Source of the DNA: Thiothrix fructosivorans
Lineage (GTDB): Bacteria; Pseudomonadota; Gammaproteobacteria; Thiotrichales; Thiotrichaceae
Assembly: GCF_017349355.1 (NCBI RefSeq)
Contig: NZ_JAFMPM010000005.1
Coordinates: 186,001 to 250,000, forward strand
Length of the DNA: 64,000 nucleotides
Direction: 5' to 3'
Part shown: positions 1 to 21,759 of the stretch, piece after piece
Layout of the letters: every line of letters starts with the position of its first letter
How positions within the stretch are numbered: position 1 is the first letter of the stretch
The notes under the pieces: generated by a model
The model's database searches: none
What the model was told of the DNA's origin: nothing
What the model saw: only the letters and a program-made list of their open reading frames with translations
Position numbers and translations under genes: made by a program

Positions 1-1769
1 AGGGAGCGAATGTCTGTGTAGCTCAATAAGGCTTTAGCCAGATTGTTGCGCCCCATTGCAACACCCGCGTCGTCTGCCTCAATGTATTCCTTGATCTGCT
101 CTACAGTTGCCTCACCAAGTTCAGGGTCATGATACCCGCGAACCAAGTCATACTTTTTCTTGGCGTGAATCTCTTCAGCGGTAACAGGCTCACCAGAACC
201 CTTGCCTGCCTTACGGCGGGAAATGTCGGCAGCGGTTGCGTCGTCAATGAGCGGGCTGTTTGCAATAAGGTCGGACTTGACCGCCTCGCGAAGCTCTTTG
301 GCAACCTTGGCAGCATCAAGGTCAACAGTACCCTCACGTTCATCACATTCTTCAATGGTCAGACCCTTCTCAATGAGAGCCGCACGGAGCAGACCAAAGT
401 AATCCCTGTAACGCTGCTCTGTGATGATTGACTGCCCTACCTGATAGCCAGCGTAGTTGGTGAAGCTATTCATAATTACTGCGTAGCGCAATTCATCAGT
501 GACGTGTTCCTTGGCGATAACATCCTTCAGGCTAATCAGGTCTTGCAGGCTGTGGCGAAGCTCAGATGCGTAGATAGGGCGACCACGGCTTGATTGATCA
601 ACCTCAACCACAGTGACCGTCTTACTCAACGGATTACGCACCCGGAACAGCATCTGCAATGCAGTGGTGTAGTCGGGGCAGTCTGGGTCATGCACAGCAA
701 ATAGGATGGTTGTATCAAAATGCGGCTGGTCAAGACTGATGCCAGTACCCATCGCTGGGGTGTAGATGAAAATGTCATAACCGTAAACCAAGCTGATGTT
801 GTTGCGGATAGCGGCTGCTTCAGCGGAATCAGCACCATCGTCCTCAGTTGCCACCAGCAAGATACGCAACCCGTCAGTCATGGGGTCAGCAGCAAGGATG
901 TCAGCCAACTTAACAGCCAGTGAGCGTGAAGTAACACTGATAGCTGGCTTTTGACCCTTACGGAGAGCGTCAGCAATAGCCTCAACCCCCTGCTCAAACC
1001 CTTTGACGAAGACAGCCTTGATGCCATCCCAACGCTTGAATGTGTTCACAACACGGGTGAAGGCGCGGGACGGGAAGAATGTCTGCGTCATCAGTGATGT
1101 GCGACTATCCATGTTGGCATCCATCATGATGACTGGCACACCGGAGGCATCCACGAGCTTCACGAAGTCACGGAAGGCATTGAATGAGCCATTCATAATC
1201 GGGCTGGCGATAGTCCCTGCAACGCTCTCGCTTTCATCGAAGACCACAGCAAACAGTGTCTTCCCAGTAGATTCCATCGCAAGCCGTACCGCTTCTACGC
1301 TATGGGCAGTGGAAGAAATAACATCATATCCAGCACGGCTGCGCTTACTGGCGAGCAACACCTTGTAGTCTACGGCGAATGGGGCAGCAATAGCGCTGCC
1401 ATCACGGTCGGTGTTCATAGCTGATGCACTGGAGAGTGCCAACTTGGTCAGGTGGGATACGAGTAGGATGTACTGACCTTCAGGAAGGTTGGCAACAAGA
1501 TCACGAATTGCTTCAGTCTTGCCGGAACCTTCGTGAGACTTCAGCATAATTGCCTTGTGACCGTCAGAAACTAGGTCGCGCAGCAAAACGCCAATATACC
1601 GTTGGTTGATTGTGATTTCGTCAGGAAGATCTACAAGTGAAACACCAGTGGCAAGCATCTGGCTGAAGTCAGCGAAAAGACCCGGTAAATCAGCGTGGTT
1701 TTCGTGGAATTTCACATTTCCAGCTAAGGAAAGGCTTTTAGTATCTTGATTTGAGATAGGAAAGGACAT
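1..1769 (-). CDS. Replication initiator / origin-binding SF2 helicase, partial (runs off left edge)
   Basis: The reading frame is open for 589 codons from an ATG at 1769 to the left edge, so the C-terminus is missing. Visible SF2 helicase motifs are a Walker A (HEGSGKTE, K at about residue 84), a DESE Walker B, a motif V-like TPAMGTGIS and a motif VI-like QMLFRVRNP. This layout resembles the helicase part of plasmid replication proteins of the CyRepA1/herpes origin-binding type. I infer that it opens the origin of the element. A TGAGGT Shine-Dalgarno precedes the ATG. It lies downstream of the 49-codon gene at 1844-1993, with a hairpin between them. No primase domain is seen in the visible part; one could lie in the missing end. 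Confidence 0.75.
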   Translation of the reverse strand, partial: MSFPISNQDTKSLSLAGNVKFHENHADLPGLFADFSQMLATGVSLVDLPDEITINQRYIGVLLRDLVSDGHKAIMLKSHEGSGKTEAIRDLVANLPEGQYILLVSHLTKLALSSASAMNTDRDGSAIAAPFAVDYKVLLASKRSRAGYDVISSTAHSVEAVRLAMESTGKTLFAVVFDESESVAGTIASPIMNGSFNAFRDFVKLVDASGVPVIMMDANMDSRTSLMTQTFFPSRAFTRVVNTFKRWDGIKAVFVKGFEQGVEAIADALRKGQKPAISVTSRSLAVKLADILAADPMTDGLRILLVATEDDGADSAEAAAIRNNISLVYGYDIFIYTPAMGTGISLDQPHFDTTILFAVHDPDCPDYTTALQMLFRVRNPLSKTVTVVEVDQSSRGRPIYASELRHSLQDLISLKDVIAKEHVTDELRYAVIMNSFTNYAGYQVGQSIITEQRYRDYFGLLRAALIEKGLTIEECDEREGTVDLDAAKVAKELREAVKSDLIANSPLIDDATAADISRRKAGKGSGEPVTAEEIHAKKKYDLVRGYHDPELGEATVEQIKEYIEADDAGVAMGRNNLAKALLSYTDIRS

Positions 1770-1800
1770 AAAATGTACCTCACATCGTAAGTTCTCATTC

Positions 1801-1832
1801 AACCCCAAAGTCGTTGGTCCGTCTTTGGGGTT
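1801..1832 (-). promoter_or_regulatory. Inverted repeat between the 49-codon gene and rep
   Basis: A perfect 10-bp stem (AACCCCAAAG / CTTTGGGGTT) encloses a 12-nt loop, 32 bases upstream of the rep start. No T-tract follows on either strand, so a simple intrinsic terminator is unlikely. It could be an attenuator or a protein/RNA target controlling rep expression; that role is inference. Confidence 0.5.
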
Positions 1833-1843
1833 ACTCATTTGGG

Positions 1844-1993
1844 CTACCTGAAAACCTTCCGGCCTTCTATCTCCCGCGTTAACCACTTCACCCACATACT
1901 TGCTACGAATGCCCGTGGGTTGGCTGGCTGTGCCTGCTGCTTTCTCCGCTGGATCTCTGCGGCTACTTGCTGGATTCTCTGTGCATCTGTCAT
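1844..1993 (-). CDS. Small basic protein upstream of rep (49 aa)
   Basis: An ORF of 50 codons starts with ATG at 1993, preceded by GAGGTGCGAC, a good ribosome site five bases from the start. The product is Gln/Arg-rich (MTDAQRIQQVAAEIQRRKQQ...) with a helical first half and a WVKWL segment near the C-terminus. I do not recognise a family. It shares its orientation and probably its transcript with the replication gene 74 bases downstream, so a copy-control or replication-accessory role is possible but unproven. Confidence 0.55.
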   Translation of the reverse strand: MTDAQRIQQVAAEIQRRKQQAQPANPRAFVASMWVKWLTREIEGRKVFR

Positions 1994-2008
1994 GTCGCAC
2001 CTCAGATA

Positions 2009-2092
2009 ATGTCACTATCAGTAGTGTCAGGCATTATGGTGTCATGTATCACTGTTTGGTGTCAATAGAGTGGTTACATTATTTGGTGACAG
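2009..2092. promoter_or_regulatory. Repeated GGTGTCA/TGACACC operator-like motifs upstream of rep
   Basis: Read on the minus strand, TGACA-cored heptamers occur with starts near 2064, 2044, 2029 and 2014 (TTGACACCA, ATGACACCA, CTGACACTA, GTGACATTA), spaced 20, 15 and 15 bases. A further TGGTGACAG lies at 2084-2092, and an isolated GGTGTCA at 2263-2269. The same heptamer is present at the divergent RHH promoters (3425-3502), suggesting a shared repressor. Confidence 0.5.
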
Positions 2093-4496: not shown

Positions 4497-4729
4497 TCCA
4501 TCAACCCCAAACTACTGCGCAACTAGCAGCTAACGGAGCCATCTGGAAGCGTGATCTCGCACTGTGGCAGATGGGTACGCCTGTTTGTGCAGGGTGCGGT
4601 GACTTACTGCTGGGCTGGGTGGAAAACCAGATTGGCCTATGCACTCACTGCCATCACGCAGAGGACGCATTGATCGAAGAACCTAAGCCGACCTTCAAGC
4701 GGGTCATTTACCGGAGTAGACCACAGTGA
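4493..4729 (+). CDS. Zinc-ribbon-like small protein (78 aa)
   Basis: Two CxxC knuckles (CAGC at about residues 32-35, CTHC at about 51-54 followed by HH) suggest a four-cysteine zinc ribbon. It has no membrane segment and ends with a basic tail. It overlaps both neighbours by four bases, so it is coupled to the membrane protein before it and the thermonuclease after it. It could be a nucleic-acid-binding or assembly accessory; function unknown. Confidence 0.6.
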   Translation: MIHQPQTTAQLAANGAIWKRDLALWQMGTPVCAGCGDLLLGWVENQIGLCTHCHHAEDALIEEPKPTFKRVIYRSRPQ

Positions 4730-5328
4730 ATCCATCAATCAGCGCAGCAGCAGTGGCAGGTGTTTTGGGCTTGTACCACTACCAAGGCTTCATGGATATG
4801 CAGGAGCCAGTCAGCCGCACGGTTGCATTCGGCCTGCCTATCCTAGCCGCGCTGGTGCTGCGTGCAGTACGTGTGGCTACAAGCGGTGTTGATGGTCTTC
4901 CATTGCCTATCGCATTCATCCGCTGCAAGGACGGTGACACGATTGTTGCTGACCACGCAGGTGCAGAGATCGACATCCGGGTATACGCCATTGACGCACC
5001 AGAGACTGACCAGCCATACGGCGCACAGGCAAAACAACGCCTGTATGAAATCTGCACCAGCGGTCAACTGGCCTACATCCCCGGCAAAGGCAACAGCTAT
5101 GGACGTGGTGTCGCCACCGTTCTGGGTGATGGTGTCGATGTCGGCCTGATGATGATTAAGGAAGGCTTGGCTTGGCCTGCTGATCCGCAATACATGCCCC
5201 CTGCAAGTTATCTGGTGGCACACACTGAAGCCCGTGATGCTGGCAGAGGCTTGTTTAATGACAAAAACCCAATCCACCCGTCTGTATGGCGGGCGACTAA
5301 AAAGCAGGCTGTGCCAGTCACGGCCTAA
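4726..5328 (+). CDS. Membrane-anchored staphylococcal-nuclease-like protein
   Basis: 200 aa from a GTG that overlaps the preceding stop. A hydrophobic N-terminal segment (about residues 33-50) precedes an SNase (thermonuclease) domain from about residue 60. It shows CKDGDTIV, IDIRVYAIDAPE with the active-site Arg and Glu region, and YGRGVATV with the second Arg. Family members cleave DNA or RNA in a Ca2+-dependent way. Whether the domain faces periplasm or cytoplasm cannot be told here. In an operon with membrane proteins and next to a DNA translocase, it could process DNA at the envelope or act in superinfection exclusion; both are inference. Confidence 0.8.
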   Translation: MNPSISAAAVAGVLGLYHYQGFMDMQEPVSRTVAFGLPILAALVLRAVRVATSGVDGLPLPIAFIRCKDGDTIVADHAGAEIDIRVYAIDAPETDQPYGAQAKQRLYEICTSGQLAYIPGKGNSYGRGVATVLGDGVDVGLMMIKEGLAWPADPQYMPPASYLVAHTEARDAGRGLFNDKNPIHPSVWRATKKQAVPVTA

Positions 5329-5351: not shown

Positions 5352-6812
5352 ATGAACAAATTTTGGGTATCTATCTACGCGCTGTTTGCTGCGGCATGGG
5401 TAGCGGTGGGCAACTTCCACGGCGGTTATTCCATCGCTACTGACATCGGCTTTAGTGGGGCTACTCCTGTAGTCCTTGGCCTGATGCTGGTGCTGGTTAC
5501 TGCTGCATTGTTCGCCACATACGTCACGCATAGCGACAAGAAAAAGCGCCTGCTGTTTCACTGGTTCAGTGGCCTCCTAATGGTGATTGCTGCCAGCAAC
5601 TTCATGTACACAGCCGAAGTGACAACTTCTAGCGCAACAGGTAACGCTGCTGCCATTGATGTACAGATTGCTGCACAACAAAGCATCAAAGCTGCGAAAC
5701 AAGCGGAACTGGATGGTCTTGCCAATACTGTGATGGGTGGACGGATTCAGGCATTGCGTGGTCAGCTTTCCTCTGCCAAGGCGGTGACTTCCAAGGGTCG
5801 GTTGGTGTGGGACATTACCGCTGGTTGCACCTTGGGCGGACATCCCAAGAACTGTTCAGTGATTGCACAAGCGCAGGCCGCACTGAATGACGAAGTTGCC
5901 CGTGTCGCGGGAACCAAGGCCAATACCATTCGTACTGACATGGCGGCGGTTGATGTGGCGATTGCCGACCTGACCACAAGCAAGGTTGCATCCACCACCA
6001 CGGCGGCAAAGTCAGGCTTCATCAGCGCAACCTTTGGCGTAGGTGCTGACTTCATGATGATGCTGATTGTTGTGATGTACGCTGCCATTGTTGAAATGGG
6101 TACAAGCCATTCTTTCCGTGTGTTCGCATTAGAGTTCAACCCGGTTGAGGTTGCTACACCTGAGAAGACTGTGCTTGAGGCGCTGCCAGTTGTAGGCCAA
6201 TTGTACGCGGATCACAAGGAACGCGCCCTGAGATCAGCACTGGTGAAGGCAGCAGCCGAAGGCAAGGAGGCCGCCCGTGCCAAGCCTGAGTTCAAGGCGC
6301 TGGTGAAGGCCAAGACTGAACTGGCAAAGGAAGTGGCGGTAGTGAAGCGTGACATCAAGTCTCACATCGCCCACCTGACTGATGTGGAAGTTGGCAAGCT
6401 GATTGATAAGGCCGGGTTCAGCGCAGGTGAGAAGGTTGACAAGTTCGCCTTGCGCGTCACTCTCCATGCTGCGGTGAAGTTGTTTGAGGCTGGTGGAGCG
6501 ATTGTCCAGAACGGCAACACCCCCATGTATGCGCAACTGACCACTACAGTTGATGTGGATGGCAAGCCAGTAGAGTTCACCTGTTCCAAGCACAAGCTGT
6601 CTACCCTGATCCTACCAGCAATGGAAGCTGCCGGGTTCGTGGAGAAGGTCGGCAAATCCTATCAGTGGGTGAGCGAAGCTGGCATGTGGGTTGCGCTTGG
6701 TGTAGAGCAAGAAGCGCCAAGCAAGGTTGATGTGAATCCTGAACCAGCAATTAAATCCGATAAATCAGCGCAACCAAAAGGTCTGCGAGTAATTGAAGGA
6801 GGCAAGCGTTAA
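5352..6812 (+). CDS. Large membrane protein with coiled coil and C-terminal regulatory-like domain (486 aa)
   Basis: Three hydrophobic segments lie near the N-terminus (about residues 4-25, 30-58, 60-82). An Ala/Lys-rich helical region with a Cys pair (GCTLGGHPKNC) follows, then a fourth segment (about 225-250) and a charged coiled-coil stretch. The C-terminal domain (about 370-450) contains LFEAGG and LSTLILPAMEAAGFVEK and is similar to the 123-aa protein at 10422. Start at ATG 5352 after AGGGAG. It is the last gene before an intrinsic terminator. Function unknown; the layout suggests a membrane platform. Confidence 0.65.
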   Translation: MNKFWVSIYALFAAAWVAVGNFHGGYSIATDIGFSGATPVVLGLMLVLVTAALFATYVTHSDKKKRLLFHWFSGLLMVIAASNFMYTAEVTTSSATGNAAAIDVQIAAQQSIKAAKQAELDGLANTVMGGRIQALRGQLSSAKAVTSKGRLVWDITAGCTLGGHPKNCSVIAQAQAALNDEVARVAGTKANTIRTDMAAVDVAIADLTTSKVASTTTAAKSGFISATFGVGADFMMMLIVVMYAAIVEMGTSHSFRVFALEFNPVEVATPEKTVLEALPVVGQLYADHKERALRSALVKAAAEGKEAARAKPEFKALVKAKTELAKEVAVVKRDIKSHIAHLTDVEVGKLIDKAGFSAGEKVDKFALRVTLHAAVKLFEAGGAIVQNGNTPMYAQLTTTVDVDGKPVEFTCSKHKLSTLILPAMEAAGFVEKVGKSYQWVSEAGMWVALGVEQEAPSKVDVNPEPAIKSDKSAQPKGLRVIEGGKR

Positions 6813-6866: not shown

Positions 6867-7195
6867 TGTCTGGATCGTTGGAACAGGGCAGGGCAGACGT
6901 AAATTATTCTGCACAGACATGGCAACCCGGACAACAAGCCAAGTCAGACGTGAACCTCACTTGCCCAGACATTTAGCACGTCTGACCAGACATGGATGCC
7001 ATTTTGCCCGGACAAGAGAGCAAAACGCCAGCAAAAACAGGCTGATTTTTGCCGAGAACAGCCCAAAAACCCCTGATTCTGCCCAGACAAGGCCGGACGC
7101 ACCCCGGACGCAACCCGGACATGAAGTCGGACATGTACTTGGTTTGCCCAGACACAGCACTGATTCTGCCCGGACACGGGTTGCTGGTGTCTGGG
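6867..7195. repeat. Array of helically phased CCCRGACA repeats
   Basis: Non-coding region of about 330 bases with many copies of CC(A/G)GACA. The 9-mer GCCCRGACA occurs at 6963, 7006, 7081, 7146 and 7168. Close variants lie at 6926, 6986, 7103 and 7114, with weaker ones between. Core-to-core distances are mostly 11, 21-22 and 33 bases, which would put the sites on one face of the helix. Single inverted copies (TGTCTGG) lie at each end (6867, 7188). It sits between the operon terminator and the RHH/FtsK-like genes, and could be an operator, a partition-type site or a translocase recognition locus. Confidence 0.7.
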
Positions 7196-7295: not shown

Positions 7296-7478
7296 TTGAA
7301 GACCGAAAAACAGAAAGCGGCATCAGTCACCGTTCATGCCAGATTAAAGCAGGAAAATCATGAATGGCTGGCGGATGAAGCAATTAAATTAGACCGCAGT
7401 ATAAGTTGGTTAATTGACCATCTAGTTGAACGGGCGCGGTTGGAACAGACTAAACAGGAGATCGAAAATGAGCATTGA
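7296..7478 (+). CDS. Ribbon-helix-helix protein next to the repeat array (60 aa)
   Basis: Starts with TTG at 7296, about nine bases after CAGGAT; no ATG lies in frame upstream of the conserved part. ASVTVHARLKQENHEWLADE, then DRSISWLIDHLVERARL, fits the RHH fold of CopG/Arc proteins. It overlaps the start of the FtsK-like gene by 11 bases, so the two are coupled. RHH proteins of the Omega/ParG/CopG type bind arrays of short repeats, which makes the CCCRGACA array just upstream its most obvious candidate target. That link is inference. Confidence 0.65.
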   Translation: MKTEKQKAASVTVHARLKQENHEWLADEAIKLDRSISWLIDHLVERARLEQTKQEIENEH

Positions 7479-9111
7479 GAACGCCACATATAGGGCAAAA
7501 CCAACCGCCAAAAAGCGGGACTTCAGCAAAGACCTATCAGGGATTCTTAAGAACTACTTCAGTGGAACGGCAATCCGCATCCTGTCCTACTACACAATGC
7601 TGGGTATCGTCACCGCCGTCATGACGCTGGCAATAACAGACCTTTTTCCTGAACTCACGAAAATGGTTGGTATCGGTGGACTGTTCCTGAACCTACTGAT
7701 TCTCGCTGTGACCGTGTACCAAGTGTTGGGCAACGAAGTGTACCTTCAAGCCGTCTGGAAGGCAGTGGCGGGGCTTATGATCGCTGTCCCAACGTCTCTG
7801 AGTCTGGTGTATCCGGGGCTTGGCGGTGGTGTAGGCGACTTGATTGGTGGCGTACTTTCCAGTTCTGCCATGCGCGTTCTAGGATTGCAGTGGGGACTGT
7901 TCATCGCAATGAGCATCATGGCATCCGCAGTGGCTGCTTTGGCTGTGCTGGCACAGCTACCAATCGTCAGGGGTCTGGCATGGGTAATTAACGCCGTCCG
8001 TGCCATGAACTACGCGCAGGGATTCGAGCCATCCATCACCAGCCGCCGCCATGTTCCAGTAACTGAAGCACCTGCTGACGCACCACAAGCCGCTACTGGC
8101 CTTGTCGCTGCACTGGAAGCCTTTGGTATCGTTGGCGCTGTTGAGAAGGGTGTTTTACCCGGCCCTGTTATCGCCCGTCATCTGGTTAAGCTGCCAAACG
8201 GTACACGGGTAAACAAAATCCCTGCTGCTGACCTTGCGCGTGACCTGCATGTAGCGTCAATCGCCATCACCAACGTAAGCGGTGGCTTGATTGCACTGGA
8301 TGTGCCACAGAAGACCCGTTTGGCTGTGAGCTTTGATGCCTGCCTGAAGTCCCCTGAATGGAAGAAGGCGCTAAGCAGTGGCATGGAGCTTCCGGTATGT
8401 CCGGGTGTAGGCGTGGATGGCAAGGCATACCCGTTCAGTCTGAAAGAAGCGGTGCATTTGTTCACCGCTGGCACGACTGGCGCTGGTAAATCCGTCTACG
8501 TCAACGCCATGTTGCTGTCATTGATGGCATCTGGTGCTGATTTCCGGTTGGCAATTGCGGATGGTAAGAGCGTTCGTGGTGACTTCGCCCCGTACTATGG
8601 CAACAGCAAACACCTGCTGAATGTAGCTGGTGTGGAGGGAATTGCTACCAAGTACGATGACATGCTGACCCAGTTGAAATGGCTGGTTGATGAAATGGAT
8701 GCCCGTTATGACGGTGTTGAACTCGACCTGACACCTATCATCTGGGTCGTTGACGAAGTTGCTGACATCATTGCTGCATTGGAGTTGAGCGGTGAGAAAG
8801 GTGCAGTGAAAGCCTTCAACGCCATGCTTGCTCGTATCAGCCAACGCGCACGGGCAGTGAGCATCATCATGATTCTCGCTACTCAGTCTCCGAACAGTGA
8901 AATCTTTGGTCAGGCGTTTCGGGCAACCGTACCTAGCGTGATTGGTCTGACAGCCAAAACCGCTGCACAGTCAAAGGTCATCATGGATGAGGAGGGCTGC
9001 GAATTGCTGCTGAGTAAGGGTGATTCATACGTGAAGTTGCTTGGTGGTGAGAAGGTGCGTGTACACGGTGCGCTGATCACTAAATCCATGATGGAAACGA
9101 TGGTTGTTTGA
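7468..9111 (+). CDS. FtsK/SpoIIIE-like membrane DNA translocase
   Basis: 547 aa from the ATG at 7468, which follows AGGAG; a longer upstream frame overlaps the RHH gene. Four N-terminal TM segments (about residues 25-170) are followed by a linker and a RecA-like motor. Walker A is TAGTTGAGKS (about 333-342) and Walker B is IIWVVDEVAD (about 424-433), then an ILATQSP sensor. The protein ends just after the motor and lacks the winged-helix gamma domain by which FtsK reads polar sequences. FtsK-family motors pump double-stranded DNA; on a mobile element this could serve transfer, segregation or resolution. Transcription ends at 9117-9142. Confidence 0.8.
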   Translation: MSIENATYRAKPTAKKRDFSKDLSGILKNYFSGTAIRILSYYTMLGIVTAVMTLAITDLFPELTKMVGIGGLFLNLLILAVTVYQVLGNEVYLQAVWKAVAGLMIAVPTSLSLVYPGLGGGVGDLIGGVLSSSAMRVLGLQWGLFIAMSIMASAVAALAVLAQLPIVRGLAWVINAVRAMNYAQGFEPSITSRRHVPVTEAPADAPQAATGLVAALEAFGIVGAVEKGVLPGPVIARHLVKLPNGTRVNKIPAADLARDLHVASIAITNVSGGLIALDVPQKTRLAVSFDACLKSPEWKKALSSGMELPVCPGVGVDGKAYPFSLKEAVHLFTAGTTGAGKSVYVNAMLLSLMASGADFRLAIADGKSVRGDFAPYYGNSKHLLNVAGVEGIATKYDDMLTQLKWLVDEMDARYDGVELDLTPIIWVVDEVADIIAALELSGEKGAVKAFNAMLARISQRARAVSIIMILATQSPNSEIFGQAFRATVPSVIGLTAKTAAQSKVIMDEEGCELLLSKGDSYVKLLGGEKVRVHGALITKSMMETMVV

Positions 9112-10239: not shown

Positions 10240-10389
10240 TCAAATATGTTGTTCATCGCTTACATGGTGATGGGTATCCTTTGGCAAGTGTAGATTTTTT
10301 GGGGACTGCCCAAGCCACTCTCCGGGTGAATCGTGATACTGAGGGGCAGCACAACCCCCAAGCACCAGCACCACGACCAGCGCCCTCAT
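10240..10389 (-). CDS. Micro-lipoprotein with SPGEWLG motif (49 aa)
   Basis: ATG at 10389 with AAGGAG nine bases upstream. A short hydrophobic leader (residues 1-12) and a lipobox (VLGGC, Cys13) predict a lipoprotein with a 37-residue mature part. YHDSPGEWLG at about residues 18-27 matches YRDAPGEWIG in the tiny lipoprotein at 13240-13377, so the two form a paralogous pair. Size and lipobox recall Rz1-type or lysis lipoproteins, but no inner-membrane partner is seen. It is antisense to the longer version of the ORF at 10422. Confidence 0.55.
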   Translation of the reverse strand: MRALVVVLVLGGCAAPQYHDSPGEWLGQSPKNLHLPKDTHHHVSDEQHI

Positions 10390-10421
10390 TCCACATCGCT
10401 CCTTGCATAGCAGGCACAGCC

Positions 10422-10793
10422 ATGAACCTGCAACGCGCATTGAGCTTGTACGAGGCTGGCGGCAAGGTGTCCGTCCGTGGCTTGCCAGCAAGGATCAATG
10501 CAGCATTCAATCTGCCAACCGCCAGTACACATGGGGCTTGGCAGGAGAGGGAGATTGGTGATGTCAGCCCATACGTCACAGAGGACTTCTGCCGTGATTC
10601 CCTGATCCCGGCATTGATTGCCATTGGCTTGATTGAGGCATCCAGTACCTCACGCAAAATGTGGGTAGATGCGCTGACGGCAAGGAAGGCGGTTGGTGGT
10701 GACGTGGCGAATATTGCTGCTGAATCTGTCCCAGTAGCAACGCCAAGCCCTCCAGTACCGGCAGGTCGTCCGCAGCTTGCAGTTGTGCGATAG
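10422..10793 (+). CDS. Protein paralogous to the C-terminal domain of the 486-aa membrane protein (123 aa)
   Basis: The frame is open from 10281, but the part before 10422 overlaps the lipoprotein and is Pro-rich. I choose ATG 10422, where LQRALSLYEAGGKVSVRGLP begins. LSLYEAGG and FCRDSLIPALIAIGLIEA parallel KLFEAGG and HKLSTLILPAMEAAGFVEK in the C-terminal domain of the protein at 5352, including a following aromatic WV. The tail is Pro/Ala-rich. A helix-turn-helix-like fold is possible; function unknown. A strong terminator follows at 10811. Confidence 0.55.
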   Translation: MNLQRALSLYEAGGKVSVRGLPARINAAFNLPTASTHGAWQEREIGDVSPYVTEDFCRDSLIPALIAIGLIEASSTSRKMWVDALTARKAVGGDVANIAAESVPVATPSPPVPAGRPQLAVVR

Positions 10794-13604: not shown

Positions 13605-14933
13605 CTAAAGACCATTTGGAACTTTAGTAACACCTTGGCTGATGTAACGTCCTGCTTGAGCATCCGGCATCATGGGTGACATTCTGGCAATGCCCGGAAG
13701 CAATCCACCAAGGGTTGCCCCTAGTACCATGTCAGCGGGTTCGCCACCGGATAGCGCAGCAGACTGAGCCATCCCTAATCCTGCGCCAGCACCCATAGCC
13801 TGTGCGGTCTTCCCAGCTTTGACCATATTACCAATGCCTTGCATAGCCTTCACTTGGCCTGTACCGGGGATAAATGCGGTAGCCACGTTACCACCAACCC
13901 GCCCCAGTTGCGCAGTACCTGAGTCACCGAACTTAGCCTGATAATCAGCTTCATCCGCTGCATTCCAATCCTTCACAGACTGGATAATCTCACCCTCCCA
14001 TTGGCGATTCCGATCCTTGATGTCCTTAACGAAGTCAGGCGTGGGGATGAAATCGAACATCCCACGAATACCTCCAGACTCATGCACCTTACCAGCGATC
14101 TCAGCTAATCCACCGGGTAAGTCTTTCAGCCCACGCACAACCCCAGCACCTAAAGCGGTGGCGGCATCCACTTTTGGCGCATCAGCAGGAGTCAAGGTAG
14201 GGCGCTTAGTAGTGGGGTTCATGTTGTAACCCACTGATTCAGATTGTGTAGTGGAAGGATTGCGCCGTTGTGCAGCGAATTCCGCCAGTGATGGCGGTGC
14301 ATCACCCTCTTGTGTTCCCGGTTGCTTACGGCTTGCCGCGAAGTCTGCCATTGAAGGGGTTTGGCTCGTATTGGCTGGCTGCCTACGCTTTGCTGCGAAT
14401 TCTGCCAGTGATGGCGGTGTATCTTGTGGGGGAATATCAGCCTGTGTACCAGCATATTGGTTGCTGGCGTACTGCACACCACTCGATGGGAACGCTGCAC
14501 TGAGTAGCTTGCTTGCCTTGCGCATGTGGTCGCCCATCTGGTTCTGCACTTTGTCACGGACAGTACCGGGAGCACCCCCGTTGCCTGCATCGGAGGCGTT
14601 GAACTTTCCGGGCGCACCTGCATTCACGATGGAATACGCATTCAGCAAATCCATACCGGGCTTCCAACCACTGGCGCGGAAATACTTGGCAACCGCACCA
14701 TTCGCACCCAATTGGCTGTTCACCGGGTCGTTCCAGTTCACACCGAATTGCTTGGCTTGTGGCTTCCCGAACTGGATCAACCCTTCGTGTTGCCCCCACT
14801 GGGTAGTCGGGCCTTTCTTTCGTGGGTCGAATGTTCCGGCTGTTTCGTAGGACACGATTGTTGCCAAGTCCAGTGGACGCATACCCAAAGACTGTGCTGT
14901 GTCCACAATGCCGCGTGCGATACCATTGTTCAT
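13605..14933 (-). CDS. Ejection/internal virion protein with lysozyme-like N-terminal domain
   Basis: 442 aa before a TAG. Residues about 1-150 resemble a soluble lytic transglycosylase or lysozyme-like fold (ATIVSYETAGTFDP with a possible catalytic Glu, HEGLIQFG, LLNAYSIVNAG). A middle region has repeats of the type PSLAEFAAKRRQP (four copies, about residues 173-235). The C-terminal half is Gly/Ala-rich and hydrophobic in places. Podoviral ejection proteins that degrade peptidoglycan and cross the envelope have this layout. It starts at ATG 14933, touching the stop of the 419-aa gene, and continues in frame past the TAG. Confidence 0.65.
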   Translation of the reverse strand: MNNGIARGIVDTAQSLGMRPLDLATIVSYETAGTFDPRKKGPTTQWGQHEGLIQFGKPQAKQFGVNWNDPVNSQLGANGAVAKYFRASGWKPGMDLLNAYSIVNAGAPGKFNASDAGNGGAPGTVRDKVQNQMGDHMRKASKLLSAAFPSSGVQYASNQYAGTQADIPPQDTPPSLAEFAAKRRQPANTSQTPSMADFAASRKQPGTQEGDAPPSLAEFAAQRRNPSTTQSESVGYNMNPTTKRPTLTPADAPKVDAATALGAGVVRGLKDLPGGLAEIAGKVHESGGIRGMFDFIPTPDFVKDIKDRNRQWEGEIIQSVKDWNAADEADYQAKFGDSGTAQLGRVGGNVATAFIPGTGQVKAMQGIGNMVKAGKTAQAMGAGAGLGMAQSAALSGGEPADMVLGATLGGLLPGIARMSPMMPDAQAGRYISQGVTKVPNGL

Positions 14934-16193
14934 TTAGTTCCCCTTGCCCCATTGGGCGTACATCGCGTTGACTTGCTGCTGAACTTCTGGTGTGTAACCG
15001 TACTGCTGCACGTAGTCACCCACGGTGATGTTAAGTTCAGCTAGGTCTTGCATCGCTTTCACGCTACTAGCGAAGGCTTCTGGCGTGTCGGTTAGTTGTG
15101 GAAGCTGTTGCAGCCGCTGCTCTACGTCTTTATTAGACGCAGCCCCCGGTGGGAGTGGGATGTCCTGTGCCAATTGCAGGATTGTTTTTTGTGCCTGTTC
15201 CAGCCCTGAAAGCCCTTCAACCTTGATGCCAAGGTCAGCAGCAATACTACCCACTTGTTGGTACACTGGAGCAAGCCCACCAACTTTCAACCCTTCCTGC
15301 GCCATCCCATCAAGCTGGTTCAGCTTCGCAAGTTGTTTCGCAGCAGTAGCGCCGCCCGTGACAATCGCTTGACGTTGGGTTTCGTTGTACTTGGCTTGCT
15401 CCATAGACATCGCCGAATCTGTTGCAGAGCGTGACGCAATGGCATTTCCCAGACCTGCTTCAGCGCCTGCTTTAACACCTGCCTTGCTGACGTAATCCAT
15501 GTTGCCAGTCTGCGGGTTATAGACCTGCATGTAGTCGCTAGAATCCTTAACACCTTGCTGGTAGGAAAAGTCGCCGCGCCCCAGATCAGATTGCGTTTGC
15601 ATTTTGCCAACATCGTACTGGTTCTGCTGTCCCATCCGACCAAGGTCGTACTGAAATCCAATGCCTTGTTCAGCGCCATACTTCGCAATAGCAGGATCAA
15701 CGCCAGCCCACGCTTTGGCTGATTCTGTTGCGTTGAGTGCATCCGTGTACCCAGCCGCGTTCACCACGCCATTCGCCCCGTACAACATACCTTCACCCAG
15801 CTTCGGTGCAGGCATAGACAGCTTGCCCGTGGTGGGGTCACGTACCATACTCCCCGGTGTGATCTGTTGCGGGGTGTTGTTGAACTTGTTCATGTCGATC
15901 AAGTTGCTTGCGCCTTCACCGCCCATTGTGGCGTACTGTGCCAGTAGTGCAGGGTCTACAGAGCCACGGCTGAACCCACCGATTACCGCTTGCTGCAAGG
16001 CTTGCTGTTGGGCTTTCAGCTTTGCCATCTCATCAGCCTTGGCTTTGTTCTGTGCGGTCGCAACCATTGCTTGCATCCCAGAACCCAACGGATCACTGCC
16101 CTGTCCGGTCATCCCGTAGGTGAGCAGCCCCATCGCTAACGGGTTCGTGCCAATGGTAGAGACTTTCTTGTTCAGTAGGTCTAACAATCCCAT
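14934..16193 (-). CDS. Putative ejection (internal virion) protein (419 aa)
   Basis: Ala/Gln/Gly-rich, largely helical protein. It has a hydrophobic N-terminal part (NPLAMGLLTYGM), a Lys/Gln coiled-coil stretch (KADEMAKLKAQQQALQQAVI) and a C-terminal conserved-looking tail (YVQQYGYTPEVQQQVNAMYA). No enzyme motif. Composition and position between the tail genes and the lysozyme-like ejection protein match podoviral ejection proteins; the assignment rests on context. Confidence 0.55.
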   Translation of the reverse strand: MGLLDLLNKKVSTIGTNPLAMGLLTYGMTGQGSDPLGSGMQAMVATAQNKAKADEMAKLKAQQQALQQAVIGGFSRGSVDPALLAQYATMGGEGASNLIDMNKFNNTPQQITPGSMVRDPTTGKLSMPAPKLGEGMLYGANGVVNAAGYTDALNATESAKAWAGVDPAIAKYGAEQGIGFQYDLGRMGQQNQYDVGKMQTQSDLGRGDFSYQQGVKDSSDYMQVYNPQTGNMDYVSKAGVKAGAEAGLGNAIASRSATDSAMSMEQAKYNETQRQAIVTGGATAAKQLAKLNQLDGMAQEGLKVGGLAPVYQQVGSIAADLGIKVEGLSGLEQAQKTILQLAQDIPLPPGAASNKDVEQRLQQLPQLTDTPEAFASSVKAMQDLAELNITVGDYVQQYGYTPEVQQQVNAMYAQWGKGN

Positions 16194-16205
16194 AATAAAT
16201 TCTCC

Positions 16206-16940
16206 TTACACGAACAGAGCACCAAGGCTCAAAGCAGTCTGCAATGGGCTGCGGTAATTAGGGTTAGCGCCTGTCTGTGACTGCCCAGCAGTCCCCATCC
16301 CTGCTGCCAATGCTTGTTGTAGTAGTCCGATACGGTCAAGCGGAGCGTTGTTCTGTTTGGTGGTTAAGTCTTGCATTGCTGTTCCCATACCCAACAAGCC
16401 CTGCGCACCTTGCAACTGGGTAGTGTCGAGACTTGGGAGCATTCCAGCCGCTTGCATCTGCGCTGCTCGCTCTTGTTGGAAGTTGCCAGAGCGCATCTGG
16501 TTCTCAGTGGAACCCAGTGCCTCTGCTAAGTTGCGCTCGTTACGGTCAACTGCTCCGCGCCATGCAGAGCCGCCGAAAGCATTAGCTCGTGCGAAGTTCG
16601 CGTCTGTCTGAGGAGCTGTGGCTGTTTGATATGCGTCGGTAATACCGCCAAGTGCCCTACTCACCGTCTGGTCGAAGTACGGGTTGGCATTCAGGAAGTC
16701 GCCTGCCACGGTCTTCGTCAACAGTCCACGGGACTGGTTAACGTCCGATGCAAGGTTCTGTTGCCCTGACATGGCACTATCCAGCGCGTAGTTCTGTTGG
16801 GTGTTAATACCTGCTGTCGGGGTGTAGCCGCTGTCATACAGATTCCCGACTTCCCCGAAGTATTTATCCATCATCGCCTGCACTTCAGGCGGTAAATCCA
16901 CTTTAGTTGATGTGGTCTGTGTTTTTGATCCACCGCTCAT
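16206..16940 (-). CDS. Putative virion/ejection protein (244 aa)
   Basis: Gln/Ala/Gly-rich, low in charged residues, with a Ser/Thr-rich N-terminus (SGGSKTQTTSTKVDLPPEVQ) and FARANAFGGSAWRGAVDRNE in the middle. Similar proteins in podoviruses lie just before larger ejection proteins. It overlaps the GNAT-like gene by four bases. Function inferred from position only. Confidence 0.5.
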   Translation of the reverse strand: MSGGSKTQTTSTKVDLPPEVQAMMDKYFGEVGNLYDSGYTPTAGINTQQNYALDSAMSGQQNLASDVNQSRGLLTKTVAGDFLNANPYFDQTVSRALGGITDAYQTATAPQTDANFARANAFGGSAWRGAVDRNERNLAEALGSTENQMRSGNFQQERAAQMQAAGMLPSLDTTQLQGAQGLLGMGTAMQDLTTKQNNAPLDRIGLLQQALAAGMGTAGQSQTGANPNYRSPLQTALSLGALFV

Positions 16941-17353
16941 GGCATTGGCTCCTTATTGATTGGGGTGAATTCCATCATTTGATAGACGGGGCGGAACGCC
17001 ATTCGCTGGTATAGCCGCCCGGTAGCATCGTCAGCGGCTGCGGTGATGGCTGTACAGCCGATGGCTTGGGCGAACTGCCACAGTTCCAGCACAACATCAT
17101 CATTGATGCCAGAACCTGCAACAGCGTAGACATGCAGTACCCGTTTGTTCGGGTGGTCAATAGGGTGTATAGCTGCCCACAAAGCCCCTGATTGCACCAG
17201 AATCATCTCGCCACGCATCAGTAGCAGCTTCAATTGCGACCCTGTGCATTCGCTAGCCGCACGGTGCATAGCATCTTCCAGACGCATAGCCCCCTCAGCC
17301 CATGCTTTATCTACCATCGCAGGGGGAATACGTTGCAGGCGTGTATCAGTCAT
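16937..17353 (-). CDS. GNAT-fold-like phage protein (138 aa)
   Basis: The C-terminal half (AQAIGCTAITAAADDATGRL, then LYQRMAFRPVYQMMEF) looks like the end of a GNAT acetyltransferase, where an aromatic-Arg-Met-Ala-Phe-Arg strand closes the fold. The acetyl-CoA loop is poorly conserved, so activity is doubtful. Proteins of this kind recur in tail regions of podoviruses with unknown role. It is coupled to both neighbours by four-base overlaps. Confidence 0.5.
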   Translation of the reverse strand: MTDTRLQRIPPAMVDKAWAEGAMRLEDAMHRAASECTGSQLKLLLMRGEMILVQSGALWAAIHPIDHPNKRVLHVYAVAGSGINDDVVLELWQFAQAIGCTAITAAADDATGRLYQRMAFRPVYQMMEFTPINKEPMP

Positions 17354-18003
17354 GGTGCAGTTACTCCTACATAGAAACGGATTTCTGCCCCTGATGCTGT
17401 TGCAACGCGGCGAATGTCGATTGTGGTACTGGTGACGGCATGAACGTACAACTGGTTGTACAGCGCATTGGCAGACAGCAGTACCATTGTAATGTTGATC
17501 TCAGCAGGCGACGGGCTATAGCCCAGATTGTGTGTCACCACCAGCGAGGTGTCCGTGTATGGCATGGTCAGCATCGTGGACTTGAACGCGAGAGCGGAGC
17601 GTCTGGTGATCGCCCGTACCGTCAACACAGAGGATTCGCCCATAGTGCAGATCGCTACATCCCCCGCATCTAGGTAAGTGCTAACCCCACCGGGGCATAC
17701 TATTGCGCCACTGTGGGTGAGGGTTTGCCGATTGGCGGTAGTCAGGATAACTAACCGCCCAACGTACCCGCCAATAGCCCCTGTGATAGCTGTACTGCCC
17801 CCAGTGATGTGGTGCAGCAACCCATCGGACGGGATGACTAACGAAGCCCCCGCTGCGATGTCAGCCCCTTGAGTGACACCCTGCTTCAACAGCGCAGCAT
17901 AAGCACGCAGATAATCGTCTGCGGTGGTGCGGTCTTCTGATCCGCCGGGGCTGTTGCTTCCTGCGGTGATGGATACTGAGGATAAGCTGGAAGGTACAGG
18001 CAT
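17350..18003 (-). CDS. Putative tail/fibre-associated protein (217 aa)
   Basis: Ser/Thr/Gly-rich, beta-strand-rich sequence with ITGAIGGYVGRLVILTTANR and TLTHSGAIVCPGG in the middle. The C-terminal part (VVTHNLGYSPSPAEINITMV, IDIRRVATASGAEIRFYVGV) resembles beta-sandwich tail-fibre or appendage domains. It starts in a TAATG junction with the 55-aa gene. Assigned by composition and position. Confidence 0.5.
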   Translation of the reverse strand: MPVPSSLSSVSITAGSNSPGGSEDRTTADDYLRAYAALLKQGVTQGADIAAGASLVIPSDGLLHHITGGSTAITGAIGGYVGRLVILTTANRQTLTHSGAIVCPGGVSTYLDAGDVAICTMGESSVLTVRAITRRSALAFKSTMLTMPYTDTSLVVTHNLGYSPSPAEINITMVLLSANALYNQLYVHAVTSTTIDIRRVATASGAEIRFYVGVTAP

Positions 18004-18170
18004 TATGGTGTCTCCAATGTGCGGATGCGTTGTTCGAGTTGGTTGACCTTGGCAATCAGTACCCGTAGGAGGTCATACAGCCTGCGGTTCAGTTGCTGGT
18101 CATAATTTTGGCTTCCTACCATCGGGAGCAGCGGGTCAGTAGGTAGAGGGATTTGCTTAACGTCTGCCAT
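18003..18170 (-). CDS. Small coiled-coil protein in the tail cluster (55 aa)
   Basis: A short ORF (MADVKQIPLPTDPLLPMVGS..., ending in a leucine-heptad helix LRVLIAKVNQLEQRIRTLE). ATG at 18170 overlaps the end of the 475-aa tail gene, and its TAA overlaps the next ATG, so it is embedded in a coupled array. The proline-rich start and trimeric-looking coiled coil suggest a small tail or connector subunit. Confidence 0.6.
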   Translation of the reverse strand: MADVKQIPLPTDPLLPMVGSQNYDQQLNRRLYDLLRVLIAKVNQLEQRIRTLETP

Positions 18171-19584
18171 TCGGAGCGACCTCCACTGTCAGGTCTGTAA
18201 GCTCAAAATCACCTGTAGTATTGAGCGTAATCCGATGATAACGAGCGGATTGCAGGAAGTCGCACTTGTGGTCATACAGGGTAGCCGTGCGCCCCTCTGT
18301 CCAGTCAATACCACTCCCTGATTTGTGTGCATGGGTCATGGTCGCAGTAGCCGGGGCTTTGTTGAAGCGAGGGCGAACCATCTTCAGTGTGCTGTAGCGG
18401 TCATCTTCACCCATGCTCCATGCAGTCAGCGAGGACGCTTGGCAGATGCCAGTCATGGAATACAGCTTTGTGTCTGTACCAACGACCACAATGTACTCAC
18501 TCGCACCCCGCAGACCGGGGGAGTCGTAAGCTGTTCCGGGATCGCTGTCGAATGTGCCGGTGTCTGCGCTGTAGGGTGTGCCGACTGAGACATACGCCAT
18601 CGTATCGGTTACAGTTTGAAGAACACGACCCCATTGCCCGGTGGTTAGGTTGAAAACGATGGCACTATCCAACGCGCCATTACTGCGGCGAGACGGGTAG
18701 AAGAACCAGACATGGCTGTTCTTGCGGTCGTAGCGTCCTTGGGTCTTGTAGAGGTTTGCTGCGTCTGCATCAGCGAAGAACCATTGCTTGATGCTGCTGC
18801 CAATACTCTGCGGGCGAGTACCATCAAACATCCAGATGTCATCACTGCCGATCAGCACATGCACCCCGGCTGCATCAACCACAGCATCTTGCCCGACGCA
18901 CCCTGCTGTACTGGATACCTGCGACCACGACCAGATGATCTCACCGCCTACGTACTGCCCGTAGTACACACCACGACGCTTGTAAGCGATGATGCCGTCA
19001 CCAATACGTTTGGCAGCGGTAACACCGCCCGGAGTATCAAGGAAGCGTCCGTTGGCGGACTGTGTGGTGATAGAAGGTGTCCAGTCTGTGTGGTCGCCTA
19101 ACGCAGAACTCCACCACTGATCGGGAAGGGAATCTGTGCCATCATTGCAGTTGAACGCCATCACGAACAGACCAACCGATTCAATAATCTTCGCAGCCGG
19201 GGCTGAGGCGATACTGGTGAAATTGTCTCCCGTTGACTGCACAATCCTGTTAACCCCGTTGCTCGCCAGAACTGCATTACCGAAACTGGTGAACATGAAA
19301 CGCGCCCCTACGTCCGTAGTGAAGCCAGTACCTATCAAGTCAAACCCTTCAGAGGTCAGTTCCAGCAGGTAGGAGTACCCGCCTACGAACGTGCGTGCGC
19401 TGCCATCCAACAGGGCTACCGTCGCACAGCCTTTGCTGGTGTAGTCAATCGGGGGCTGCCCCATGTCAACAGCAGATGGGCTGCCTACCACGCCACGAAG
19501 AGTAGGCAGGATGTTTGTCGCTGCGGTGATAGCCCCCGGTGTGGCGGCATCAAGGTCTGGGGCGAATCCAAGTAGTTTTGGCAT
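18157..19584 (-). CDS. Tail protein, beta-propeller-like (475 aa)
   Basis: The N-terminus (KLLGFAPDLDAATPGAITAA) and repeated beta blades with Trp/Asp (DDIWMFDGTRPQSIGSS, KNSHVWFFYPSRRSNGAL, FNLTTGQWGRVLQT) resemble tail nozzle or stabilisation proteins of podoviruses and related tail proteins. No enzymatic motif. It follows the fibre gene and precedes the 55-aa gene. Structural role inferred. Confidence 0.6.
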   Translation of the reverse strand: MPKLLGFAPDLDAATPGAITAATNILPTLRGVVGSPSAVDMGQPPIDYTSKGCATVALLDGSARTFVGGYSYLLELTSEGFDLIGTGFTTDVGARFMFTSFGNAVLASNGVNRIVQSTGDNFTSIASAPAAKIIESVGLFVMAFNCNDGTDSLPDQWWSSALGDHTDWTPSITTQSANGRFLDTPGGVTAAKRIGDGIIAYKRRGVYYGQYVGGEIIWSWSQVSSTAGCVGQDAVVDAAGVHVLIGSDDIWMFDGTRPQSIGSSIKQWFFADADAANLYKTQGRYDRKNSHVWFFYPSRRSNGALDSAIVFNLTTGQWGRVLQTVTDTMAYVSVGTPYSADTGTFDSDPGTAYDSPGLRGASEYIVVVGTDTKLYSMTGICQASSLTAWSMGEDDRYSTLKMVRPRFNKAPATATMTHAHKSGSGIDWTEGRTATLYDHKCDFLQSARYHRITLNTTGDFELTDLTVEVAPNGRR

Positions 19585-19590
19585 GATCTA

Positions 19591-20577
19591 TTACCGCATT
19601 CTGTAGCCGCTGAAGTAGCAGCTTTCGTTACCGTGGACACCACCTGCTGTGACCACCACTTTCACTTGGTCGCCAGCGTTGAACTGTGCCTGTAGCATCA
19701 TCGCCACTGGGACATACTCGGTACTGTTAGTTGAATTCGCGTAGCAACGCGAAGATGTGGCTGACCCGTTCAGGTAGAACCGAACCTCAGTAGCTGTGTT
19801 GTTGTTGTGCTTGATGCCGCTGAAGTCGAACCTGTATAACCCTGCGACTGGCACGGTGTAGATGCCCGTCGTGACATTAAGCTGCCCATCGTTCATATAC
19901 GTACTGTTGTAATTGGCAACAGTGCCTGTCACTGGGTTGACAGCATCCCCTGTTCTTAGAACTGAGAAGGCGTATAAGGTGGGCATTGACCCAGTTGCAC
20001 CAGTTGCACCAGTTGCTCCTGTAGCTCCTGTAGCTCCTGTAGCTCCTGTAGCACCCTTCAGATCAGTGTACGTTCCCCAGCTCCCATCCGGGTTTTGAAA
20101 ACGTAACTGTGTGGTATTCCACCCGTGGGCAGGCATATCGCCCTTAGCACCAGTCGCTCCTGTAGCTCCTGTAGCTCCTGTAGCACCAGTTGCCCCAACC
20201 CCACCAGTTGCGCCAGTTGCGCCAGTTGCGCCAGTTGCCCCAACCCCACCAGTAGCCCCAGTTGCGCCAGTAGCGCCGGTTGCTCCGGTAGCCCCAGTTG
20301 CGCCGGTTGCACCTTTCAGATCAGTGTATTCGCCCCAAGTACCATCTGGATTTTGAAAGCGTAGCTGTGTGGAATCCCAGTCATGTTCAGGTTTATCGCC
20401 TTTCGCGCCGGTAGCACCAGTAGCTCCGGTTGCACCTTGCTCACCTTTCTCCCCTTTGTGCGGGTTCTCACCCCACACCGTATCGCTGGCATCAGCCGGG
20501 GCTGTGCTGCCAGACTCCCATAAGGTATCCCCGGTGTCCGCAGGGGCGGATGCGCCGGAAGACCACAAACCACTCAT
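19591..20577 (-). CDS. Collagen-like fibre with C1q-like C-terminal domain
   Basis: 328 aa. Short duplicated N-terminal motifs ([16 protein letters not shown] / [16 protein letters not shown]) precede three Gly-X-Y stretches made of GAT triplets. Between them lie two copies of a 35-residue segment ([20 protein letters not shown] and its repeat). The last 130 residues ([11 protein letters not shown]-like start, [27 protein letters not shown] end) match the jelly-roll signature of C1q/TNF-like heads. It is probably a trimeric fibre for host attachment. It overlaps the adaptor gene by four bases. Confidence 0.75.
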
Positions 20578-21218
20578 ACCAATACTCCTGTGTCGGGGAA
20601 CATACCGATGTACAGCGGGTCTGGACTGTCTACCAGATCGCCTTCACGCTTGGAGTTAATCAGGGAATTCAATGCTTTTGTGTACAAGCTCACCCATGTC
20701 TGGATACGGGCATCATCTTGAAGATAGCCTTCAGCCGCGATCAGTGAACCGAACAGGTACAGCCCCGGAGACAGTTGCAGCAACCAGTTGTCTGCATCAT
20801 CATCAGGCTCACCACCAGCAAGCGATGGGCTGATAACCGGGACGTACTGCACATCCAACGCATACGTGGCGTCCGGGGTAGGGTAGAGGCGCAGTGAGCC
20901 ATAGCCTTCCAGCGCCACGAATTTTGGGCAACCAGAAGTGCCGTTATTCGGGCGAATTGAACCGGATTGTACAATTCGTAATGGTGTACCTTGGTAAGAC
21001 ACACTCACCAGCTTGTACATACCCGTTACAGCAATGGTTTGGGAGCCTACTGCACAAGTAGCGTCACCCCACTGATATAGGGATGGGCTGTTGCACAGTG
21101 TCGCCTGAATGTCCGCTTCTGCCAGCGCGATAAACGTAGGGATAGTAGAGGTAAGGTCATCCCGGTGGAGCCAATCAGCAATTGCCGCTTTGAGTTGTGC
21201 GCTGGTAGATAGTGCCAT
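20574..21218 (-). CDS. Head-tail adaptor protein (SU10/P22 gp4-like)
   Basis: 214 aa, beginning with a helical segment ([30 protein letters not shown]) characteristic of podoviral adaptor proteins. A beta-rich middle ([18 protein letters not shown]) and a C-terminal helix bundle ([19 protein letters not shown]) follow. This family forms the ring under the portal. It starts in a TGATG overlap with the 93-aa gene. Confidence 0.7.
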
Positions 21219-21499
21219 CAGATTTGCCCCGGTTTGGTACGGAAGTAGCGGTTATCTGGGTCATTCAGGAACTGGCGCATTGCTGCTTGGTCAGTCAGCA
21301 GGTCAATACCTTGCTCTACTTTGAACTTCTCAATAACCACCAGTGGAATGCGGGCTACATGGTGCATCCCATCGCCCTTCCAGCCACGGTTGTCGTGGTC
21401 GAATGCCGCTTTGTTTGCGTCAAGGATCGGCTGTACATCCTGTACCGCACGGATGCCCCACTTCTCTGACCCCTCGTCATACAGGAATTGCCGTTGCAT
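21218..21499 (-). CDS. Small phage structural-region protein (93 aa)
   Basis: A soluble protein (MQRQFLYDEGSEKWGIRAVQ, then GWKGDGMHHVARIPLVVIEK, and DNRYFRTKPGQI at the end). This pattern occurs in phage proteins next to capsid genes, though the function is not known to me. ATG at 21499 after CGAGGATTAATT. Confidence 0.55.
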   Translation of the reverse strand: MQRQFLYDEGSEKWGIRAVQDVQPILDANKAAFDHDNRGWKGDGMHHVARIPLVVIEKFKVEQGIDLLTDQAAMRQFLNDPDNRYFRTKPGQI

Positions 21500-21501
21500 A
21501 A

Positions 21502-21717
21502 TTAATCCTCGATATGGACTTTGACAGCTCCCGCGTCCTGCAAGCGTTTCGCCATTGCGATGGGCAGGGATACCGGAACAGGTGGATTACTGGGGAAGAT
21601 CATGTTGCCATCTTCACCGCCAATGCCGCGCAGGACGATCACATCAATGCGTTTCGCCTTAGCAGGTTTCGGTGGGTTGGTTTCATCGGCAGGGTTGGTT
21701 TCAGTCATGTCGGTCAT
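21502..21717 (-). CDS. Small phage protein with Pro/Lys-rich N-terminus (71 aa)
   Basis: A short polar N-terminus (ETNPADETNPPKPAKAKR) leads to a compact basic/acidic domain (IDVIVLRGIGGEDGNMIFPS, IAMAKRLQDAGAVKVHIED). It lies between capsid and adaptor, where podoviruses often encode small head accessory proteins. No family recognised. The intergenic region before it carries two hairpins (21733-21778). Confidence 0.5.
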   Translation of the reverse strand: MTDMTETNPADETNPPKPAKAKRIDVIVLRGIGGEDGNMIFPSNPPVPVSLPIAMAKRLQDAGAVKVHIED

Positions 21718-21732
21718 CTTGGTATCTCAGTT

Positions 21733-21751: not shown

Positions 21752-21759
21752 GTGGTGAA

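Follow-up and report, generated by a model that had tools for sequence, protein, structure and literature searches.

The window analysed here, a stretch of 64,000 nucleotides (C5:186001-250000 of the 4.36-Mb host genome, G000), contains a real array of short, helically phased direct repeats, and this locus sits within a prophage, between the gene of a membrane protein and the genes of an RHH protein and an FtsK-like translocase. Judging from sequence, we tentatively suggest, with chances slightly below even, that the array is an element-specific docking site, which would be read by the membrane protein and would present the DNA to an FtsK pump devoid of a gamma domain. The best explanation at hand is a docking array that follows the logic of clt without being a member of the TraB/clt family.

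The features of the prophage are collected in Table 1. The module occupies 3.0-9.1 kb of the window in the order: RHH pair, small membrane proteins, SNase-family nuclease, 486-aa membrane protein, array, 60-aa RHH protein and FtsK-like translocase, and an antirepressor gene lies between it and the SU10-like structural genes (minus strand, to ~30 kb). For the translocase, the ATG at 7468, which overlaps the stop codon of the RHH gene, is the likelier start. No peptidoglycan hydrolase was found among the ORFs scanned beside the FtsK gene of the window, and a search for the att sites of the prophage had no useful outcome.

Table 1. Features of the prophage and of its phased-repeat module (window positions, unless contig C5 is named)
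Feature	Position	Strand	Remarks
Integrase	C5:183319-184587		First of the listed prophage genes
CyRepA1-like / ori-binding-like replication protein, 921 aa	C5:185250-188015; window 1..2015 (N-terminal two thirds)	-	124.7 bits, below the NCBIfam cut-off of 200
Divergent RHH regulators, two genes	3036-3533; 3495-3722	-; +	
Small membrane proteins, two	3831-4088; 4131-4496	+	Holin-like matches weak, below cut-off only
SNase-family nuclease with hydrophobic N-terminal part	4726..5328	+	PF00565, E 2.6e-13; same direction as, and upstream of, the 486-aa membrane protein gene
486-aa multi-TM protein with cytoplasmic C-terminal region	5352..6812	+	Candidate array reader; topology by eye; weak alignments
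Inverted copy CCAGACA, left edge	6867..6873	-	
Repeat array, GACR sites with core CCRGACA	6893..7176	+	
Inverted copy CCAGACA, right edge	7188..7194	-	
RHH (Arc-like) protein, 60 aa, TTG start	7296..7478	+	Rival reader candidate; phrog_3180, E 4e-4; weak RHH_5
FtsK-like translocase: N-terminal membrane part (by eye), alpha domain, motor	7426..9111	+	
170-aa ORF resembling wHTH2, a protein encoded ahead of FtsK in relatives	10281..10793	+	hhalign probability 75%, E 2.5e-5 (single comparison)
Structural and lysis genes: SU10-like portal, major head protein, terminase, endolysin	13605..29901	-	

The original prediction described at least nine same-strand copies of CC(A/G)GACA, five of them as GCCCRGACA, with one inverted copy at each end. 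Eight exact copies of CCRGACA are present on the plus strand (6927-7176), or ten if two CCGGACG are counted, and both the five longer copies and the two inverted ones were confirmed. The shorter motif GACR defines 14 plus-strand sites (6896, 6916, 6930, 6947, 6968, 6989, 7011, 7086, 7096, 7107, 7118, 7130, 7151 and 7173), which form two blocks of seven, 75 bp apart. Their successive spacings are 20, 14, 17, 21, 21, 22, 75, 10, 11, 11, 12, 21 and 22 bp, 10 of the 13 falling at 10-12, 20-23 or 31-35 bp.

When the intergenic region was resampled 5000 times under a Markov-1 model, CCRGACA occurred at most three times per resample, compared with the eight copies observed. The number of GACR sites alone is unexceptional (14 versus a null mean of 6.1 and a maximum of 19), because the intergenic region is itself GAC-rich. 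The best period of the 14 sites is 10.8 bp (pairs no more than 70 bp apart), and their phasing was equalled by 15 of 5000 random placements at this limit, by 46 of 5000 with pairs limited to 40 bp and by 36 of 5000 with a 280-bp limit. Taken alone, the eight strict copies are not significantly phased (347 of 5000 placements). A motif-free score gave eight in-phase pairs for the array, which is the top-scoring place in the window; 3960 background windows, taken from 20 host-genome stretches 20 kb in length, had at most six.

As regards enrichment, a check that had been proposed along with the array, GCCCRGACA has 44 copies genome-wide, compared with 15 of the reversed control, and forms a cluster nowhere but at the array. 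In the window as a whole, CCRGACA shows no clear enrichment (25 copies versus 16.5 expected; 5 of 100 shuffles reach 25). The array had also been called non-coding, which holds as a judgement, since a 127-aa ORF overlaps it (6847-7230) and was judged spurious.

Arrays of ~11-bp period with other motifs were found in the FtsK neighbourhoods of related elements in G004, G002 and G030. The underlying FtsK search of 144 genomes, with housekeeping matches set aside by frame length, yielded non-housekeeping genes in G002, G004, G011, G020 and G030, as well as a defence-like group in G003, G012 and G006 (L043-L045), in which a 495-aa FtsK-like protein lies beside SMC/ABC-like ATPases, as in a defence-like operon (best in-phase score 3). 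In the profile and protein searches of the class, the FtsK matches listed were housekeeping-like by frame length, save that of the window itself. Pfam analysis of the pumps of five relatives identified FtsK_SpoIIIE in four and a HerA/TrwB-like protein in the fifth (L142), and their neighbours include M23, CHAP or M15 peptidoglycan hydrolases.

A search with the membrane protein of G004, which matched 6 of 71 genomes, added elements in G005, in the host itself (contig C6, hereafter G000-C6) and a second one in G030, and there was a partial match in G037, to the TM part only. Six full-length orthologues of this protein were obtained, five of them 30-65% identical to that of G004. In all six, the repeats are found at the same position, between the last TM helix and the C-terminal ~58 residues. 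By eye, the C-terminal domain of the protein looks like a winged helix (wHTH). The motifs differ from element to element: GGACACG in G004, GGMCACG in G005, GGGCAACC in G011 (an element spanning contigs C43 and C1, treated as one by inference), GTTAACA in G000-C6, GTTGAC, with orientation switching midway, in G030-C25, and a weak AACAAC in G030-C39. G002, whose TM protein is not one of the six orthologues, has a CGGGGAA array at a corresponding place. An AATGAA array in G020, being partly codon-periodic (12 bp), was not counted in support. The sites lie within the membrane-protein gene in the six orthologues and follow that gene in the window. Related elements displayed repeat-(membrane protein)-FtsK synteny instead of the proposed repeat-RHH-FtsK order.

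The second element of the host, G000-C6 (L121:1524-14521), is small and apparently complete and comprises an integrase, the TM-wHTH protein with its GTTAACA array, M23 and lysozyme-like proteins, wHTH2, FtsK and a DUF927 helicase. On the G050 contig (L144:13452-18909), ORFs resembling by eye a coupling ATPase and a MobA-type relaxase were seen, and this element may combine two transfer modules. Tandem minisatellites of 11 bp also occur in G009 (L123:8583-8803), in G013 (L124:8507-8617 and L126:7179-7289) and on contig C5 of the host (L125:7640-7760). Their units are GGACATCCGTG, or GGACAGAAGCG/GGACAGCCACG; L125 is a short relic with TTGCATTGCAC, and the flank is common. Those of L123 and L125 have in their vicinity an RHH gene as well as a gene resembling the predecessor of the TM-wHTH gene in G011 and G000-C6. 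The four are possibly relics or relatives of the arrays.

A profile of the six orthologues matched 10 of 63 family genomes, and nine loci were scored for phased repeats. Five family genes remain once L140, L138 and L135, whose matches are confined to the wHTH part, are set aside and L131 and L139, which represent a single gene, are counted once. All five family loci (3.3-3.5 kb) contain an in-phase chain of at least four copies of one 6-mer, as do 4 of the 120 pieces of background DNA, each 3.3 kb long; in four of the five the chain is within the gene or no more than 400 bp after it. Out-of-phase chains of more than two copies were present in none of the nine loci versus 15 of the 120 background pieces. 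Among the three loci outside the family, L135 likewise reaches four copies in a chain.

An array in the linker had been predicted beforehand, and it was found in the linker itself in G003b and G037 only. G003b has a CTGCAAT chain of eight there and, in an arrangement like that of the window, another array immediately downstream of the gene. In G037 the chain is of four and the locus is not clearly repeated by other measures; as L097 it had already appeared, with its repeat, in a ranking of loci by exact 6-mers, and thus it is not an unseen locus. The chain lies just 3' of the gene in G003a and G010, which are close homologues and therefore not independent, and in the next gene in G050.

The possibility that the arrays of the relatives are mere DNA of protein repeats is opposed by synonymous resampling (12 genes, 300 resamples each, with chain and copy number as measures). 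In eight of the 12 genes, no more than two resamples reached the observed value on at least one measure. Both measures were passed by G004, G000-C6, G002 and G003b, for which the protein sequence consequently does not account for the repeats, and neither by G030b, G003a, G010 and G050. Some codon phase is also present, as the distance between adjacent sites is divisible by three in 28 of 61 cases. In a pooled spacing test, with motif definitions made after seeing the arrays, the best period was 10.95 bp (0 of 5000).

No chosen motif is needed for the motif-free score, the 6-mer chain scoring or a ranking of loci by exact 6-mers. The first placed G005, G000-C6, G020 and G003b above the background maximum, and the other nine of the 13 relatives scored 2-5. 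The same range (best in-phase scores 2-5) was obtained for the control loci, i.e. five plasmid or phage FtsK loci, L043-L045 and two of nine Brevibacterium loci; on plasmids and phages, FtsK genes had Dnd or other contexts as neighbours. The exact-6-mer ranking, made on a non-random set of loci, put the minisatellites L123, L124 and L126 above the arrays of the elements and missed the degenerate array of the window.

The membrane proteins of G004 and G005, the only pair sharing a motif, are 58% identical in the N-terminal part and 74% in the C-domain, the latter being the highest value of 15 pairs (the next is 54%). Three pairs with different motifs are alike in the N-terminal part, with N- and C-terminal identities of 85 and 42% (G004-G011), 82 and 40% (G004-G000-C6) and 93 and 54% (G011-G000-C6). 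The pair G000-C6 and G030b runs against such co-variation, as its motifs are different and yet the C-domain (49%) is more conserved than the N-terminal part (37%).

Other proteins of the elements were compared in the same way. The integrase, M23 and lysozyme-like proteins are 93% identical between G011 and G000-C6 even though the motifs differ, and wHTH2 does not track the motif (74% for G004-G011, 27% for G004-G005). Replication proteins, on the other hand, also differ between the motif groups (58% for G004-G005; 45% for the helicase of G011-G000-C6), which by this comparison leaves them as conceivable readers, and the array and the C-domain, being physically linked, could be swapped together without any recognition. 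Between G011 and G000-C6 (L040:11034-13031, L121:9123-11156), identity in the membrane parts reaches 90% for wHTH2 and 96% for FtsK, compared with ~30% in the cytoplasmic parts, as if the wHTH2 head and the motor had been exchanged as a matched pair in a mosaic.

The notion that FtsK itself reads the array was rejected. The window translocase matches FtsK_alpha and the motor and ends after the latter, with no FtsK_gamma match at E up to 0.1, which agrees with the original prediction that the gamma domain is lacking. Moreover, FtsK identity does not track the motif: it is 91% for G004-G011, whose motifs differ, and 31% for G004-G005, whose motif is the same (the FtsK gene of G004 is interrupted, and only the 330-aa first part was compared). 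FtsK is thus an unlikely reader. The suggestion that the array is a recognition locus for the translocase, clt-like in concept, is indirectly supported by the arrays at the corresponding position in several pump-bearing relatives, though not as a site that the pump itself reads.

The reader role is extended to the window by architecture, since its TM protein has no detectable homology to those of the relatives; the same is true of the G002 TM protein when compared with the other relatives. The C-domain of the window protein aligns weakly with the wHTH of the relatives (E 0.18 and 0.019), and a helix-wing-like stretch was noted by eye at residues ~408-440. The fold predicted for this domain was uninformative (pLDDT 59) and matched no PDB entry at E 0.001 or better, tblastn of the TM proteins against plasmids and phages gave no match and scans of viral contigs yielded nothing useful.

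We hypothesize that the cytoplasmic C-terminal domain of the 486-aa protein would bind along a single face of the helix, with one site every ~11 bp, and that the bound domains might build a filament or a patch at the inner membrane, whose ends and polarity would be set by the two seven-site blocks and the flanking inverted copies. The gamma-less FtsK-like motor would take its DNA specificity from this membrane tether and pump the double-stranded DNA of the element from there. In the small relatives, which have a peptidoglycan hydrolase in the module, the outcome might be transfer across the envelope; the prophage could use the module to transfer phage DNA, or else to segregate or position its replicating form. 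Motif divergence would keep co-resident elements apart, in the manner of incompatibility types.

The strongest competitor of membrane docking is a parC-like role, in which the RHH protein binds the 11-bp repeats as operator and/or centromere and autoregulates the RHH-FtsK operon, with FtsK as the motor. The original prediction, too, had offered a centromere or operator bound by this protein. In its favour, the RHH gene adjoins the array directly, and the two blocks of repeats resemble R1 parC, where ten repeats are reported to flank a promoter. ParR, the RHH protein of ParMRC, is described as binding direct repeats upstream of the motor gene, of 11 bp in R1 and 10 bp in pB171 (PMC9426499). Against it, ~120 bp separate the end of the array from the start of the RHH gene, an RHH gene directly after the array was seen only in the window, no relative of the 60-aa RHH protein was noticed at a comparable position among the loci inspected, and the arrays of the relatives are inside or just after the TM-protein gene. 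We regard this role as less likely than membrane docking, albeit one to be taken seriously.

Improbable, in our opinion, is the use of the sites as iterons of a replication origin by the CyRepA1/ori-binding-like protein. The prophage does encode this protein, same-strand repeats are typical of iterons, the DNA after the array is AT-rich by eye and the iterons of lambda are inside an initiator gene (PMC3349717). However, G011 and G000-C6 have separate repeat clusters directly after their helicase genes, with motifs AAGACAAA and GTTACCCC, in mixed orientation and surroundings AT-rich by eye, and it is these that look like the real origin. In addition, ~5 kb lie between the array and the Rep gene, and an AT-rich tract and separate repeats (TGGTGTCA) are present upstream of that gene. 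The origin reading is less likely owing to these separate clusters and to this distance. Three forward and three inverted copies of TGGTGTCA are located upstream of Rep (2037-2269) and beside the divergent pair of RHH genes (3425-3503); their count over the window is not significant (7 of 100 shuffles reach it), and they are possibly operators or an origin.

Least probable is ordinary multi-site transcriptional control by a long operator with no role in DNA movement: the array does lie upstream of an operon and an RHH gene, and G004 has a three-copy GGACA cluster just upstream of its wHTH2-FtsK genes, but this reading leaves unexplained the main arrays inside coding sequence in several relatives, and usual operators have fewer than the 8-14 phased sites present here.

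Should membrane docking be correct, the separate membrane-bound reader, with the array in or beside its own gene, would represent another route of self-recognition for a non-specific DNA pump. If the module moves DNA between cells, it would do so by an FtsK-like pump and not by the classical type IV route, outside the actinomycetes, and the arrays may serve as a sequence signature for finding such modules. In the open-licence literature, no paper was evidently devoted to FtsK modules of this kind with direct repeats, outside the TraB/AICE literature. A broader proposal, which we put forward as doubtful, is that a new class of FtsK/HerA-type dsDNA transfer modules exists in the prophages and small integrative elements of the family, in which a gamma-less pump would be guided by a separate membrane-anchored winged-helix protein reading a phased array in or just after its own gene, reader and site forming one exchangeable specificity cassette.

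Several known systems share single traits with the locus. ParMRC has an RHH gene beside an array of ~11-bp direct repeats upstream of a motor gene, as the window does, and the sequence of its repeats varies between types and sets compatibility (PMC9426499). Unlike in ParMRC, the motor of the window is FtsK-like and the relatives tie the array to the TM protein; no ParM-like actin ATPase was found among the scanned products, which did not take in all small ORFs at 9.3 and 12.4-13.2 kb. The ~11-bp period also recalls the stbDRs of R388, two sets of five 9-bp direct repeats with 2-bp gaps, engaged in stability and conjugation (PMC3098194). R388, however, has a StbB-type ATPase rather than an FtsK-like pump, its repeats are placed around a promoter and not in a gene, and a membrane reader is not described in the portion of that paper available to us. 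The names StbA and StbB did not occur among the matches of the general domain scans. The lambda O gene contains the ori iterons, the binding sites of its own product (PMC3349717), just as the candidate sites of the relatives are inside the gene of the proposed binding protein, but those iterons are of 18 bp and function in replication initiation, in contrast to the 11-bp phase and the membrane protein seen here.

The closest parallel is provided by actinomycetes. TraB of Streptomyces reads the 8-bp clt repeats via its own C-terminal HTH, motor and reader being one protein (PMC4170104, PMC5365140), and AICEs are small integrative elements with an integrase, replication genes and FtsK, known from a survey limited to actinobacterial genomes (PMC3218068). 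With both, our locus shares an FtsK-family dsDNA pump, short repeats, which act in cis in the known systems, and membrane proteins. The module of the relatives resembles such FtsK-type transfer elements, as a pump, a wall hydrolase, membrane proteins, an integrase and replication genes occur together. Unlike TraB, the pump of the window shows no C-terminal DNA-reading domain, and reading is assigned, as a proposal, to a distinct membrane protein; unlike clt, the array is inside or just after the gene of that reader; and unlike the AICEs, the copy in the window resides in the prophage of a tailed phage.
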